Made by a program: the position numbers and the translations under genes. DNA of 58,464 nucleotides from a virus: positions 1 to 58,464 of IMG/VR virus record IMGVR_UViG_3300021964_000073, one strand, 5' to 3'. Positions 20,751-58,138 of the stretch are shown piece by piece; the stretch's first letter is position 1; the number at the start of each line of letters is the position of its first letter. The notes below the pieces were generated by a model. That model did not search any database. It was not told where the DNA came from and saw only the letters and a program-made list of their open reading frames with translations.

Positions 20751-21410
20751 CAACTCTTCAACTAATGGAAAAATTTTAGCAATAGCTTTTGCACATTCTA
20801 CTGCTATTTCCATATGCTCTTTTTGTGTGCCATTTGCACTACGTAATTCAATGTAGTGTACCCAACTTCTTATTGTTCCGTTCATGTACAAACGTGTTTT
20901 TGTAAGTCCTTCTGGAAGTACTGCACGAGCTTGTTCTTTTGCTATTCCGTTATTAATAGCCCACTCATATGCTTTACCTGCTGTATACATTACATCTTGT
21001 TGCATTTCTTCCCATTTATCGTTTAGTACAGTATCTTCTGTTTCAATACTATTTTGTCTATTTTTAGTATCTTGTAAACGGGCTTCTCTTACAACAAACA
21101 TATCACCCATTTCACTAGGCTCTGCGTAACGTTGACTAAACTCTTGAAAAGCAAAACTACGGTGACGTACAATTTGATGTGCAATATCACGTGTAGTTTC
21201 AATTTCTAATGTAGCATTAGCCATTTCTAAAGGTGACCAGTGTTGATGCTTGATTAGATACTTAATTAAACGTTCACTTGTTTCTTTATTAATCTGCGCC
21301 GCTGGATTTGAAACTTTAGCACAAAACGCAATTAAGTCCTGTACGTTTTCTAATCCTTCATTGATAAATTCTTGGGTAGGTTGCGAGTAGCTTACTAGTT
21401 TTACATTCAT
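20739..21410 (-). CDS. thyX: Flavin-dependent thymidylate synthase ThyX
   Basis: About 223 residues. The ThyX motif RHRX7SxR is present as RHRSFAFQEFSQRYAE, the site that binds dUMP and FAD. The enzyme makes dTMP from dUMP with methylene-tetrahydrofolate and reduced flavin. I place the start at 21410, where ATG overlaps the halogenase stop (TAATG) and GGAA lies upstream; the ATG at 21422 has no ribosome site. It is the last gene of the operon that begins at 25972-26000. Confidence 0.95.
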   Translation of the reverse strand: MNVKLVSYSQPTQEFINEGLENVQDLIAFCAKVSNPAAQINKETSERLIKYLIKHQHWSPLEMANATLEIETTRDIAHQIVRHRSFAFQEFSQRYAEPSEMGDMFVVREARLQDTKNRQNSIETEDTVLNDKWEEMQQDVMYTAGKAYEWAINNGIAKEQARAVLPEGLTKTRLYMNGTIRSWVHYIELRSANGTQKEHMEIAVECAKAIAKIFPLVEELKGA

Positions 21411-22906
21411 TAATTTTTCCATTCTAATAATGTTGGGTCCATACTCATATTCAGATATAAACCGTAGTTGTCAATTGCTTCTTTATGTGTTACTGTTCCG
21501 TTCTTTGTTTGGCTTTCATCCATTTGTGATTTCCAATCTTTAAGAACTTCTAATGCAGTTTCGTCAGATATGTTAGATGTTGCACCTATTTCTTTTTCAG
21601 TTTGTAATAACCAACATAGCCAATTACTACCTCCGAAGAAGTGCCCTTTACCGTCATTAGGTAAACGTTTACCTTCTTTGATTAGTCTACGATACCATAA
21701 TAGTGTTTCACTAGGAATATAAGTTTCTTTTACAAAATTCCAAAATGGTGTATCAAAATCACTTCTTGCATAATGCATGTTTATGAAGTCAATAGTATCT
21801 TCATATATACTTGTCATAATTGAATTGTACATATCAATATCAGCTTGTGTAAAATATTGCTGTCTAATACGTGCGGCTAATGTATAAATTGCTCCTGTAA
21901 TAGTAGCAAGACCTGTACTTTCAAGTGGTTCAATAAATCCTCCACTAAGTCCAATAGCACAAACATTTTTATCCCAAGGGTTAGTATTATAATAAGGCGT
22001 CCAGTCGATAACTTTTAATTGTTCTGGTGTAATTCTATTATTCCAATATTCACAAAAACGTTTCTTTGCTTCTTCCGGACTTGTTATACTTCTATTAAAA
22101 ACTAGTCCACTACCAATGCGTGTTTGTACAGGAATATTCCAAACCCAACCGCAATCAACTGCTTCACTAACAACATAAGGATGTTTTTCTCTAAGTTCAT
22201 TTTCGTAAGGCACATGACCTGCTACTGCTGTATCACAAAACAGTCTACCTTTTAAGTCGACTCTATCTGCGTTATTTTGTAGCAGTTGTTTGAATCCAGT
22301 ACAATCTACAAAAAAGTCACCTTTTACATTTTGTCCATCTAATAAATCAATACTAGTAATAAAACCTTCGTCGTCTCTATTGATGTTTGTCATTTCACTT
22401 TTAATTACTGTTACATGATCTTTCAATTGATCTTGCAACCATTGTACTAGTTTACTAGCATCAATATGACTGGCATAAAAATTTAAATTTTCTGTGTCAA
22501 CTTTATTATCCTGACTTAGGCGCCAAAATGCTCCTAACTCTGTAAAGTCAAAATCCTTTTGGTGATGAGTCCAGGCTTCAAAAACACTAGTTTCTTTTTC
22601 AGGATATTCTCTATTAAGGAAAAAAGGATGCCATACTAAATTGTCATCTTTGCCCCAATTTGGAAAAAGTATACCACTTTTATATGTACTGTCAATTAAA
22701 TCAAACCAACTGTCTGTAGGGAATCCACAGCGTTTTAAAAAGGTATCAAAATGCAACAAAGTGCCTTCACCTACGCCAACACTAGCACCAACTTCTTTAT
22801 CAACTAGAGTAACATGCATATCTAAATTACGTGCTATAAAAGCCGCAGTAAACCATGCACTTGTGCCACCGCCTACAATTACTACACTATTAACTTCTTT
22901 AAACAT
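21410..22906 (-). CDS. Flavin-dependent tryptophan halogenase-like protein
   Basis: 498 residues. The FAD motif VVIVGGGTSAWFTAAFIAR is at the N-terminus, VGVGEGTLLHFDTFLKRCGF is in the region that carries the catalytic Lys of PrnA-type enzymes, and the halogenase signature WxWxIP is present as GWVWNIPVQ. These enzymes use reduced FAD, oxygen and halide to chlorinate or brominate tryptophan or related aromatics. I chose the ATG at 22906, which follows AGGACAGG and overlaps the parvulin stop (TAATG). Free or protein-bound substrate is unknown. Confidence 0.9.
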   Translation of the reverse strand: MFKEVNSVVIVGGGTSAWFTAAFIARNLDMHVTLVDKEVGASVGVGEGTLLHFDTFLKRCGFPTDSWFDLIDSTYKSGILFPNWGKDDNLVWHPFFLNREYPEKETSVFEAWTHHQKDFDFTELGAFWRLSQDNKVDTENLNFYASHIDASKLVQWLQDQLKDHVTVIKSEMTNINRDDEGFITSIDLLDGQNVKGDFFVDCTGFKQLLQNNADRVDLKGRLFCDTAVAGHVPYENELREKHPYVVSEAVDCGWVWNIPVQTRIGSGLVFNRSITSPEEAKKRFCEYWNNRITPEQLKVIDWTPYYNTNPWDKNVCAIGLSGGFIEPLESTGLATITGAIYTLAARIRQQYFTQADIDMYNSIMTSIYEDTIDFINMHYARSDFDTPFWNFVKETYIPSETLLWYRRLIKEGKRLPNDGKGHFFGGSNWLCWLLQTEKEIGATSNISDETALEVLKDWKSQMDESQTKNGTVTHKEAIDNYGLYLNMSMDPTLLEWKN

Positions 22907-23229
22907 TAACCTGTCCTTACAATTATATGTACACCGAACGGTGTAATGCATGGAGGAGCAAGCGTATCTATACCTGAAATTTTAACAGCATTACTAAAAT
23001 CTGGATGCATTTGTTCTTCTTCAAACCAACCCAAGTCTCCATAAGATCTTTTTCCACTAGGACACGCACTATTTTTAGCCGCGGCATCGTTCCAAGTAGT
23101 CTTGCCTGTTTCAATATCTCTTATAATATTTGCCGCATCTTGCATAGCTACACCGAGCGGTCTATTATGTGTACTCATCTCTGCTTTGTCATAACTTAAT
23201 AAAATATGTTTTGCTTTAAGCTTCATCAT
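22906..23229 (-). CDS. Parvulin-type peptidyl-prolyl isomerase
   Basis: 107 residues, a single parvulin domain: KAKHILLSYDK at the start, NSACPSGKRSYGDLGWFEEE in the middle, and CITPFGVHIIVRT at the end, all family landmarks. It has no signal peptide or membrane anchor, so it should act in the cytoplasm on proline bonds of folding proteins. It sits between the 2OG oxygenase and the halogenase genes, with TAATG to the halogenase. Confidence 0.85.
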   Translation of the reverse strand: MMKLKAKHILLSYDKAEMSTHNRPLGVAMQDAANIIRDIETGKTTWNDAAAKNSACPSGKRSYGDLGWFEEEQMHPDFSNAVKISGIDTLAPPCITPFGVHIIVRTG

Positions 23230-53231: not shown

Positions 53232-53305
53232 TGGACACTAAGGCCGGAATCGAACCGGCGTACACGGAGTTGCAGTCCGTTGCATAGCCACTCTGCCACT
53301 TAGTG
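53232..53305 (-). tRNA. tRNA-Cys (GCA), CCA encoded
   Basis: A 74-base cloverleaf: acceptor CACTAAG / CTTAGTG, anticodon stem ACGGA / TCCGT around loop CTGCAAC (anticodon GCA), T-loop GTTCGAATC, discriminator T and encoded CCA. Last of three close-packed tRNA genes downstream of the attenuator-like leader. It reads TGT and TGC; the leader peptide has TGT. Confidence 0.95.
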
Positions 53306-53307
53306 AT

Positions 53308-53384
53308 TGGTCGGAGTAGTAGGATTCGAACCTACGATCTCTTGGTCCCAAACCAAGCGCCTTACCAAACTAGGCCATACTCCG
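53308..53384 (-). tRNA. tRNA-Pro (TGG), CCA encoded
   Basis: A 77-base cloverleaf: acceptor CGGAGTA / TACTCCG, anticodon stem CTTGG / CCAAG around loop TTTGGGA (anticodon TGG), encoded CCA. It abuts tRNA-Trp with no gap and is 2 bases from tRNA-Cys. It reads CCA, the codon used twice in the leader peptide. Confidence 0.95.
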
Positions 53385-53458
53385 TGGCATCGGTGCAGGG
53401 AGTCGAACCCCGGCTTACAGTTTTGGAGACTGTCGTGCTACCATAACACTTCACCGAT
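53385..53458 (-). tRNA. tRNA-Trp (CCA), CCA encoded
   Basis: A 74-base cloverleaf: acceptor ATCGGTG / CACCGAT, anticodon stem ACAGT / ACTGT around loop CTCCAAA (anticodon CCA), discriminator G and encoded CCA end. Its 5' end is directly next to the T-run of the terminator at 53459-53495, so no separate promoter fits between them. Confidence 0.95.
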
Positions 53459-53495
53459 AAAAAAAGCCCCTAACCGAATTAACTGCTAGGGGCTT
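53459..53495 (-). terminator. Rho-independent terminator/attenuator before tRNA-Trp
   Basis: Minus-strand hairpin with a 9-bp stem AAGCCCCTA / TAGGGGCTT (53495-53487 and 53472-53464), a 14-base loop and a seven-T run ending at 53459. It lies between the leader peptide and the first tRNA of the cluster, so it must be passed for the tRNAs to be made from the visible promoter. Confidence 0.88.
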
Positions 53496-53523
53496 ACTTA
53501 AAATAACTTTTTAAAAAGTCACG

Positions 53524-53583
53524 TCAAGACATACCCCCGGATGGTGGCCAACAAGTAATATATGCTGTATTAGTCTTGATCAT
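53524..53583 (-). CDS. 19-aa leader peptide with Cys-Trp-Pro-Pro codons
   Basis: MIKTNTAYITCWPPSGGMS, preceded by AAGGA at an ideal distance. Codons 11-14 are TGT TGG CCA CCA, the exact codons read by the three downstream tRNAs. Bases 53548-53543 (overlapping the Pro codons) can pair with GGGGGT (53538-53533, the Gly-Gly codons), and the same GGGGGT can pair with GCCCCT in the 5' arm of the terminator. This is the mutually exclusive pairing of a classical attenuator. Pairings were made by eye. Confidence 0.75.
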   Translation of the reverse strand: MIKTNTAYITCWPPSGGMS

Positions 53584-53615
53584 GTTAAAATTCCTTTGTT
53601 TCTTAGTATGTATAT

Positions 53616-53644
53616 ACTATACTACATTTATTTATCGTTGTCAA
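53616..53644 (-). promoter_or_regulatory. Sigma70 promoter for leader peptide and tRNA cluster
   Basis: Minus strand TTGACA, 17 bases, TATAGT, about 26 bases of leader before the peptide's ATG. A late-like ATAAATAA lies inside the spacer and could allow late use as well. Confidence 0.8.
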
Positions 53645-57292: not shown

Positions 57293-57519
57293 CGTCCTCG
57301 TCCTTCTTTTGTTATGTGTTCAATAGGTCCCGGAGTTGTAAATTCGTATCCAAATGCATTACCGACATATACTCTTCCGTTGTATTTCATATGAATCTTA
57401 TTAGTTGCCATTGCAACAATACAATGATCTTTTTCTTTGTAAGACATTACTTCTGCTTCTACAATTCTATCGTTATTAGTACAAGTTACCTTGCATGTTT
57501 CTTCAATGTGCGATTTCAT
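57289..57519 (-). CDS. Small protein, unknown
   Basis: 76 residues from the ATG at 57519, which has AAGGA upstream (MKSHIEETCKVTCTNNDRIV). It holds two Cys and a beta-rich body. First gene of the unit leading to clpP and the tRNA-Ser/Gly pair. Confidence 0.55.
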   Translation of the reverse strand: MKSHIEETCKVTCTNNDRIVEAEVMSYKEKDHCIVAMATNKIHMKYNGRVYVGNAFGYEFTTPGPIEHITKEGRGR

Positions 57520-58138
57520 AATTATCCTTAATATTAACACGATTTACTTCAGTTGTCAACCTTTTTCTTACCATTTTGTGTATACCAGGATTGACTTTTA
57601 ATACGTGATGCATCATATTGTGTCTAATATGATTTCTCATGTAACTGGTATCGTTATTACTTTCATCTTCTAAGTATGGTACATTTTTAATATTGCACCA
57701 AAGCTCTAAATCACGTTTACGGTTATGTCTAAATGGACGAATTACATTTCCTCTAGCATACGGAATAGTTCTACTCTCACCATGCATACTAGTAAACATC
57801 CAAGTTTCAACACAATCATCTAAATGATGTCCCATAACAACTGTTTCTCTAATATTATGTAGGAACTTGTATCTTTCGTCTCTCCAGTGTTCTTCTTGAC
57901 TCTTTTCGGCAGGCTTAGGATGACCTTTAATTTCATCTGAAATAAATTCTAATTTATGTTTAGTACAGTAGTCGTCAAGAAAGTCGTATGCTTCGATACC
58001 GTGCGGTGTTAGGTGATTGTAATAGGCAACTTGTACATCATGATTACGTTTTAGAAAATCTAAAATAGCCATGCTATCTGCGCCGCCTGAACAAGCAACT
58101 ACAACGTTACGTGGAAGTTTTCCTTCGACTTTAATCAT
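57503..58138 (-). CDS. tilS: TilS-like tRNA(Ile)-lysidine synthetase domain
   Basis: 211 residues, matching the catalytic N-terminal domain of TilS. The PP-loop SGGADS (VVVACSGGADSMAILDFL) binds ATP, and VVMGHHLDDCVETWMFTSMH, VIRPFR and the C-terminal YLEDESNNDTSYMRNHIRHN are TilS landmarks. TilS converts C34 of tRNA-Ile to lysidine so that AUA is read as Ile. The C-terminal tRNA-binding domains of larger TilS proteins are missing. The start overlaps the upstream stop by ATGA. Confidence 0.82.
   Translation of the reverse strand: MIKVEGKLPRNVVVACSGGADSMAILDFLKRNHDVQVAYYNHLTPHGIEAYDFLDDYCTKHKLEFISDEIKGHPKPAEKSQEEHWRDERYKFLHNIRETVVMGHHLDDCVETWMFTSMHGESRTIPYARGNVIRPFRHNRKRDLELWCNIKNVPYLEDESNNDTSYMRNHIRHNMMHHVLKVNPGIHKMVRKRLTTEVNRVNIKDNYEIAH
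57531..57559 (-). promoter_or_regulatory. Sigma70 promoter for the clpP unit
   Basis: Minus strand TTGACA, 17 bases, TAATAT, 11 bases before the ATG at 57519; it lies within the coding end of tilS. Confidence 0.75.

Follow-up and report, generated by a model that had tools for sequence, protein, structure and literature searches.

In the attenuators of enteric bacteria, the position of a ribosome on a leader that carries control codons decides whether an antiterminator or a terminator forms in the nascent RNA; a 1:2 pause hairpin is not universal among attenuators. A leader peptide with Trp codons is also employed by rtpA (anti-TRAP) of Bacillus subtilis. The reason why phages carry tRNA genes has been unclear for more than 50 years (PMC10264068). 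In that work, phage tRNAs are proposed to restore host tRNAs depleted by anticodon nucleases during infection, and the destruction of host tRNAs by defense nucleases is one published setting for tRNA scarcity. It concerns nuclease-resistant anticodon loops; a term search gave no mention of promoters, and a switch for supply on demand does not appear to be described in it.

Here, we describe a locus within a viral DNA fragment of 58,464 nt (the window, by which the whole analysed stretch is meant). We consider it highly probable that a ribosome-mediated transcription attenuator controls the phage tRNA operon at this locus; translation, stalling, and the choice between termination and readthrough are inferred, without expression data. 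With somewhat less assurance, but still as a probable reading, the operon family to which it belongs gauges several of its own tRNAs via one leader, the codons of which are re-tuned by selection as the operon content changes. Such a self-programming homeostat would possibly release replacement tRNAs upon host tRNA destruction. What can be read from the sequences is the anatomy, its conservation, in-frame co-variation of codons and tRNAs including synonymous codons, a positional cutoff, and predicted hairpins that exclude each other. What makes the tRNAs scarce, whether cleavage of host tRNAs or a heavy demand by the phage, is inferred.

The elements are ordered as promoter, AAAGGA, ORF, terminator, and the genes for tRNA-Trp, tRNA-Pro, and tRNA-Cys, with no gap between the terminator and tRNA-Trp (Table 1). 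The sequence-only reading had described a promoter, a ribosome site, a 19-codon frame with TGT TGG CCA CCA, a terminator with seven T, and gapless tRNAs, and all of these are present on the minus strand. A short ORF with a ribosome-binding site thus lies between promoter and terminator, which is the first feature required of a ribosome-mediated attenuator, and in the window the leader stop codon sits 7 nt beyond the G run. A simple scan for terminators, which allowed loops of 3–8 nt only, did not list the leader terminator; folding gave −17 kcal/mol. Additionally, a promoter-like TTGACG-16-TATTTT is found at 53527-53500 (minus strand) within the antiterminator hairpin. Its position ahead of the terminator, and its loss in leaders reading TTAACG, mean that it does not bypass the switch.

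Table 1. Features of the tRNA operon leader and its surroundings (positions in the window)
Feature	Position	Strand	Basis or remark
sigma70-like promoter TTGACA-17-TATAGT	53616..53644	-	11/12 match to consensus
Shine-Dalgarno-like AAAGGA	53592..53597	-	read from sequence
Leader ORF MIKTNTAYITCWPPSGGMS*, 19 codons, ATG 53583 to TGA 53524	53524..53583	-	sequence; sole frame with codon–tRNA match
Control codons TGT TGG CCA CCA	53542..53553	-	TGG = 53550-53548
GGGGGT (G run)	53538-53533	-	sequence
Antiterminator hairpin	53488..53538	-	predicted fold, about −20 kcal/mol
Antiterminator 5' strand GGGGGTATGTCTTGACGTGACTTT	53538-53515	-	partner: 3' strand AAAGTTATTTTAAGTAAGCCCCT, 53510-53488
Intrinsic terminator AAGCCCCTAGC...GGTTAGGGGC TTTTTTT	53459..53495	-	sequence and fold, −17 kcal/mol
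Terminator arm GCCCCT	53493-53488	-	common to terminator and antiterminator
T7 run	53465-53459	-	sequence
tRNA-Trp(CCA), operon gene 1	53385..53458	-	directly abuts T run
tRNA-Pro(TGG)	53308..53384	-	second operon gene
tRNA-Cys(GCA), last operon gene	53232..53305	-	ligase promoter comes after
Separate promoter for next gene, ATP-dependent DNA ligase	53224-53196	-	3' of tRNA-Cys

Related loci were gathered via two neighboring proteins, a DNA pattern, and the terminator alone. The DNA pattern covers the region past the control codons and contains no Trp codon. The three routes combined yielded 90 distinct leaders of this type from viral contigs; the leader is no one-off, and its codons match the operon tRNAs beyond chance as judged by shuffling (see below). 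The arrangement of leader and terminator before a tRNA cluster is attributed to marine giant phages. tRNA-Trp(CCA) is the first tRNA after the leader in all 90 cases, having been read by eye in three of them (L213, L202, and L293; finder miss or contig end). An in-frame TGG is present in each of the 88 leaders with a readable frame, mostly 10, 13, or 16 nt from GGGG (in a few at 7, 11, 12, or 19 nt), and in nearly all leaders this distance equals 1 modulo 3. A promoter with at least 9/12 matches precedes 79 of 85 related leader ORFs, the AAGGA-type Shine-Dalgarno motif recurs among relatives, and the N terminus of the peptide is partly conserved. In a sample picked by the DNA ligase gene, and hence blind to leader presence, leader and/or terminator sequence was found in 30 of 35 distinct tRNA-Trp upstream regions.

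No second leader per genome was seen in 10 large contigs, in which the terminator pattern occurred once (eight contigs) or not at all (two). The leader used as a DNA query against isolated phages gave only weak matches to unrelated phages (E 0.02 or worse among the matches listed), and no exact match to the leader pattern was found in bacterial or archaeal genomes. Similarly, Rfam at the gathering score reported only tRNAs and no known element for the leader.

The second feature to be expected is present: the frame of the ORF contains control codons that correspond to what the operon encodes. From W−3 to W+3, after deduplication, the leader offers a decodable codon to 121 of 137 non-Trp operon tRNAs, compared to 79.8±3.6 on shuffling among all leaders and 89.4±3.9 on shuffling within the leader class; the observed value was not attained in any of 5000 shuffles. 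With a tighter operon definition the match is 116/126 versus 75.2±3.6 (z 11). Wobble rules were assumed for these counts, with CAT read as Ile2 and TCC reading GGT. From W−4 to W+3, a codon is found for every operon with tRNA-Cys (41/41), tRNA-Pro (34/34), tRNA-Ile(TAT) (12/12), and tRNA-Tyr (4/4), and for most with tRNA-Ser(TGA) (10/12), a CAT tRNA (10/11), or tRNA-Gln (6/7). Synonymous codons follow the same pattern: where the operon holds a TAT or CAT tRNA, the Ile codons of the leader are ATA in 38 cases and ATT/ATC in none, and without such a tRNA the ratio is 12 to 38 (P 1e-14 for the contrast).

Individual leaders illustrate the exchange of codons. In L322, CWPP is replaced by CWRR and the operon is Trp-Arg-Cys, with tRNA-Arg instead of tRNA-Pro. 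RWCPE precedes Trp-Pro-Cys-Glu-Arg in L172, YWYPI precedes Trp-Ile-Tyr-Pro in L288, and GWPS precedes Trp-Pro-Gly-Ser in L167; GW in L206 goes with a tRNA-Gly in the operon, and YW in L211 with a Trp-Tyr operon. Leaders found after the hypothesis had been formed mostly fit, namely L308 (Trp-CAT-Pro; ATA and CCA), L343 (Trp-CAT; ATA), and L344 (Trp-Pro-His, with a His codon at W−4). The misfits among them are L337 (Ser/Gln) as well as L279 and L291 (tRNAs for Glu and Arg that lie another 48 nt downstream). Overall, no leader codon is present for about 8% of operon tRNAs (e.g., Lys in L216 and Ala in L181), many Trp-only operons retain CWPP despite having neither tRNA-Cys nor tRNA-Pro, L104 has ATA codons without an Ile tRNA, and L312 has an Ile tRNA and a leader without ATA.

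These counts rest on partly related sequences. A leader is inherited along with its operon, and shuffling disregards the tree, so that the match could be a by-product of common codon bias or descent, with no regulatory role. To limit relatedness, each leader was paired with its nearest relative having another operon, as judged by sequence outside the control codons. A leader's own codons suited its operon better in 22 of these pairs, worse in none, and equally well in 16. As the stratified shuffles are still far exceeded and no association is seen beside GGGG or in other frames, we give the by-product explanation hardly any credence. Co-variation of leader codons with tRNA identity among relatives had been put forward as a check of the sequence-only reading; the outcome is strongly positive, with 22:0 among pairs and a signal in the translated frame only. 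Its central proposal, an attenuator-like leader controlling a tRNA operon, gains support from this co-variation, while readthrough upon stalling remains an inference.

In frames +1 and +2, codon–tRNA matches show no excess over shuffles, and this confinement to the translated frame distinguishes translation from direct pairing between RNA and tRNA. It bears on a T-box-like or riboswitch-like RNA, in which uncharged tRNA would pair with leader triplets and stabilize the antiterminator without translation. The leader triplets do match the anticodons of the operon tRNAs, and T-boxes are known for antitermination in response to tRNA. Such an RNA would need a specifier that works without translation, whereas the signal is found in the translated frame alone. 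A T-box would also have a conserved T-box/antiterminator sequence and a specifier loop. Moreover, a single leader matches several different tRNAs, no T-box or other riboswitch in Rfam matched the 58,464 nt at the gathering score, and the matching triplets cease at a ribosome-sized distance from GGGG. A T-box-like mechanism is therefore regarded as extremely unlikely.

The footprint of a bacterial ribosome extends about 10 nt past the codon in its A site. When sorted by the distance from the codon end to GGGG, the codon–tRNA association is strong at 10, 13, 19, 22, and 25 nt, weaker at 7 nt, and not separately significant at 16 nt; the positional profile across leaders gave no association at 4 or 1 nt from GGGG or inside it. 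The cutoff consequently falls about where a stalled ribosome would start covering GGGG. Judged by geometry only, the leaders meet a third expectation, that a stall leaves the antiterminator strand free and full translation masks it. In the window's own leader, the sensing zone takes in Cys (13 nt) and Trp (10 nt); of the two Pro codons, the first (7 nt) is a borderline case and the second (4 nt) falls beyond the zone. Of the codons pointed out from the single sequence, only Cys and Trp clearly remain.

The invariant Trp, followed in many leaders by Pro-Pro, a known slow motif, could also point to nascent-peptide arrest of the TnaC kind or to Pro-Pro pausing, with the peptide rather than the tRNA supply stalling the ribosome. 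Leaders with WCSP, WRR, WPL, or WPS have no Pro-Pro, and the synonymous Ile codons track the tRNA set. An arrest peptide should furthermore have conserved arrest residues at fixed spacing, but Trp alone is invariant and its neighbors vary with the operon. We thus rate peptide-driven stalling as very improbable, and stalling for want of a charged tRNA remains the preferred reading.

With the 3' arm of the terminator removed, folding predicts one long hairpin in which GGGGGUAUGUCUUGACGUGACUUU is paired with AAAGUUAUUUUAAGUAAGCCCCU, at about −20 kcal/mol compared to −17 kcal/mol for the terminator. This putative antiterminator is a conserved hairpin of about 20 bp that begins at the GGGG run and would exclude the terminator. 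It is predicted in 90/90 leaders, with the G run pairing with the 5' arm of the terminator and the GCCCC arm common to both structures. With the loop and 3' side alone shuffled, its median z is −3.3 over 75 distinct sequences. In L114, L233, L238, and L288, the 3' strands are quite different and pairing with the conserved 5' strand is maintained. When the 5' strand is masked, as by a ribosome at the stop codon, the remaining RNA folds as the terminator. By prediction only, antiterminator and terminator are mutually exclusive structures with a common strand, as an attenuator demands. RNAalifold on a MAFFT alignment of 30 sequences recovered the outer 6-bp helix only, because the length of the 3' strand varies, and per-sequence folding against shuffles was used in its place. 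Covariation was found just at the edge of the GGGG/CCCC helix, since GGGG and CCCC are nearly invariant.

The sequence-only reading had let GGGGGT pair either with the terminator arm GCCCCT or with bases over the Pro codons. The former pairing is upheld in 90/90 leaders, as part of a long hairpin instead of the 6-bp helix envisaged as the antiterminator. The latter was dropped as weak and not conserved, the true partner being the antiterminator hairpin of about 20 bp. Similarly, a 1:2 pause or protector hairpin is not supported by the folds and leader alignments, in which the sole hairpin 5' of GGGG is weak and lacks conservation. As such hairpins are not universal, this absence limits the statement that the element is a trp-type leader, not the statement that it works like one.

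In L114, L125, and L143–L146, the ORF is cut short or changes frame close to its end, with the 5' strand of the antiterminator intact; conservation of this strand in spite of such changes to the ORF indicates that it is kept as RNA. A tiny ordinary gene with its own terminator, with transcription of the tRNAs left to incidental readthrough or to promoters upstream, would account for the full unit of promoter, ribosome-binding site, ORF, and terminator and for the partly conserved N terminus, and small genes are common in phages. It would not account for L114, L125, and L143, in which the ORF is cut or frame-shifted and the RNA hairpin retained, nor for codons, synonymous Ile ones included, that track the downstream tRNAs. 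In addition, ORF and terminator vanish jointly where tRNA-Trp has its own promoter. Very little credence can be given to an ordinary gene.

Under the attenuation reading, RNA polymerase would initiate just past 53616, with a ribosome trailing on the 19-codon leader. With charged Trp and Cys tRNAs plentiful (in relatives, the other listed tRNAs), the ribosome would reach the stop codon and mask GGGGGUAUGUCUUGACGUGAC. No antiterminator could then form from the masked 5' strand, GCCCC would pair with GGGGC, and transcription would end before tRNA-Trp. A ribosome stalled at an undecodable codon at least about 7–10 nt upstream of GGGG would leave GGGG exposed; the free GGGG would allow the antiterminator of about 20 bp to capture GCCCC, and the polymerase would proceed into the tRNA genes. 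Because the output is the scarce tRNA itself, the loop would act as a homeostat, with leader codons evolving together with the operon content. Masking of GGGGGTATGTCTTGA in the leader RNA would be expected to raise termination. As no conserved hairpin lies upstream of GGGG, an untranslated leader should read through.

The earlier reading would have been refuted by relatives that keep the tRNAs without the peptide. This situation is met in 5 of the 35 regions of the ligase-anchored sample, but these lack the terminator as well as the leader, and in them a promoter of their own ends 11–13 nt before tRNA-Trp. A lone tRNA-Trp without leader or terminator, an unregulated version of the same gene, is found in L101, L126, L147–L149, and L159. 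In about 20 leaders, an insert of 70–95 nt separates the T run from tRNA-Trp (e.g., L106:4700-4787, L093, L121, L133, L206, L242, and L172). Most inserts fold well as RNA and fall into two or three types, one with a 10-bp closing stem and the hairpin loop CUGCAA, which could pair with UUGCAG, and another with AUGAGUACACUC...GAGUGUAUUCAU. The inserts in L218, L106, L117, L172, and L211 matched no Rfam family even at a lax threshold; they could be a processing element or a ribozyme (compare theta ribozymes, PMC10879173).

Among isolates, the DNA polymerase of the 58-kb fragment is closest to those of jumbo phages of Rhizobiales, and PhoH, ThyX, and ClpP are also encoded. The main tRNA-rich stretches of Sinorhizobium phage Phosso, Agrobacterium phage Atu_ph07, and Vibrio phage 2.275.O have no such leader; tRNA-Trp is present there in two of the three isolates nearest by DNA polymerase, the leader being absent. 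A TilS-like PP-loop protein is encoded at 57503-58138 (minus strand), named by its resemblance to tRNA-Ile lysidine synthetase. It may, by inference, fit lysidine-modified CAT tRNAs, that is, Ile tRNAs decoding ATA, and the ATA codons in leaders of CAT-tRNA operons fit such a protein. A tryptophan halogenase family protein is encoded at 21410-22951 (minus strand; Pfam E 1e-86); a tie to the Trp switch is possibly coincidence.

Should operons of this kind indeed be turned on when their own charged tRNAs run short, their tRNAs would be a supply that the phage draws on as needed. Models with tRNA scarcity during infection, caused by nuclease defense or by heavy demand, would then be favored over those with constant codon compensation. 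The leader codons would be a readable record of which tRNAs are limiting for the phage, and the leader could serve as a natural reporter when tRNAs are depleted. In the open-access papers searched, no leader-peptide attenuator was found in front of tRNA genes, phage or bacterial. The principle of attenuation is known; tRNA genes as the product, the sensing of multiple tRNAs, and the co-evolution of codons and operon appear to be new.

Like the enteric trp, his, and phe leaders and pheST/pheM, the phage leaders have a short ORF, translated by inference, in which control codons stand for the sensed amino acid; they also have an antiterminator and a terminator with a common strand, between which the ribosome position would decide. 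The enteric attenuators act on biosynthetic enzymes or an aminoacyl-tRNA synthetase, whereas the phage leader would act on the cognate tRNA cluster, would sense several amino acids at once, and has control codons that track the operon; attenuation would thereby be extended from enzymes and synthetases to tRNA genes. Compared to the classical trp leader, there is no conserved 1:2 pause hairpin, and readthrough is expected without translation. A shortage of charged tRNA is likewise sensed by T-box regulators and by rtpA (anti-TRAP) of B. subtilis, the latter with a Trp-codon leader peptide, but no T-box motif was found in the window, the sensing by the phage leaders depends on the frame, and their output would be tRNA genes. 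TnaC-type attenuation similarly has a short Trp-containing leader ORF preceding a regulated terminator. That terminator is Rho-dependent, whereas the phage leaders have an intrinsic one, contain no fixed peptide motif except Trp, and track synonymous codons.
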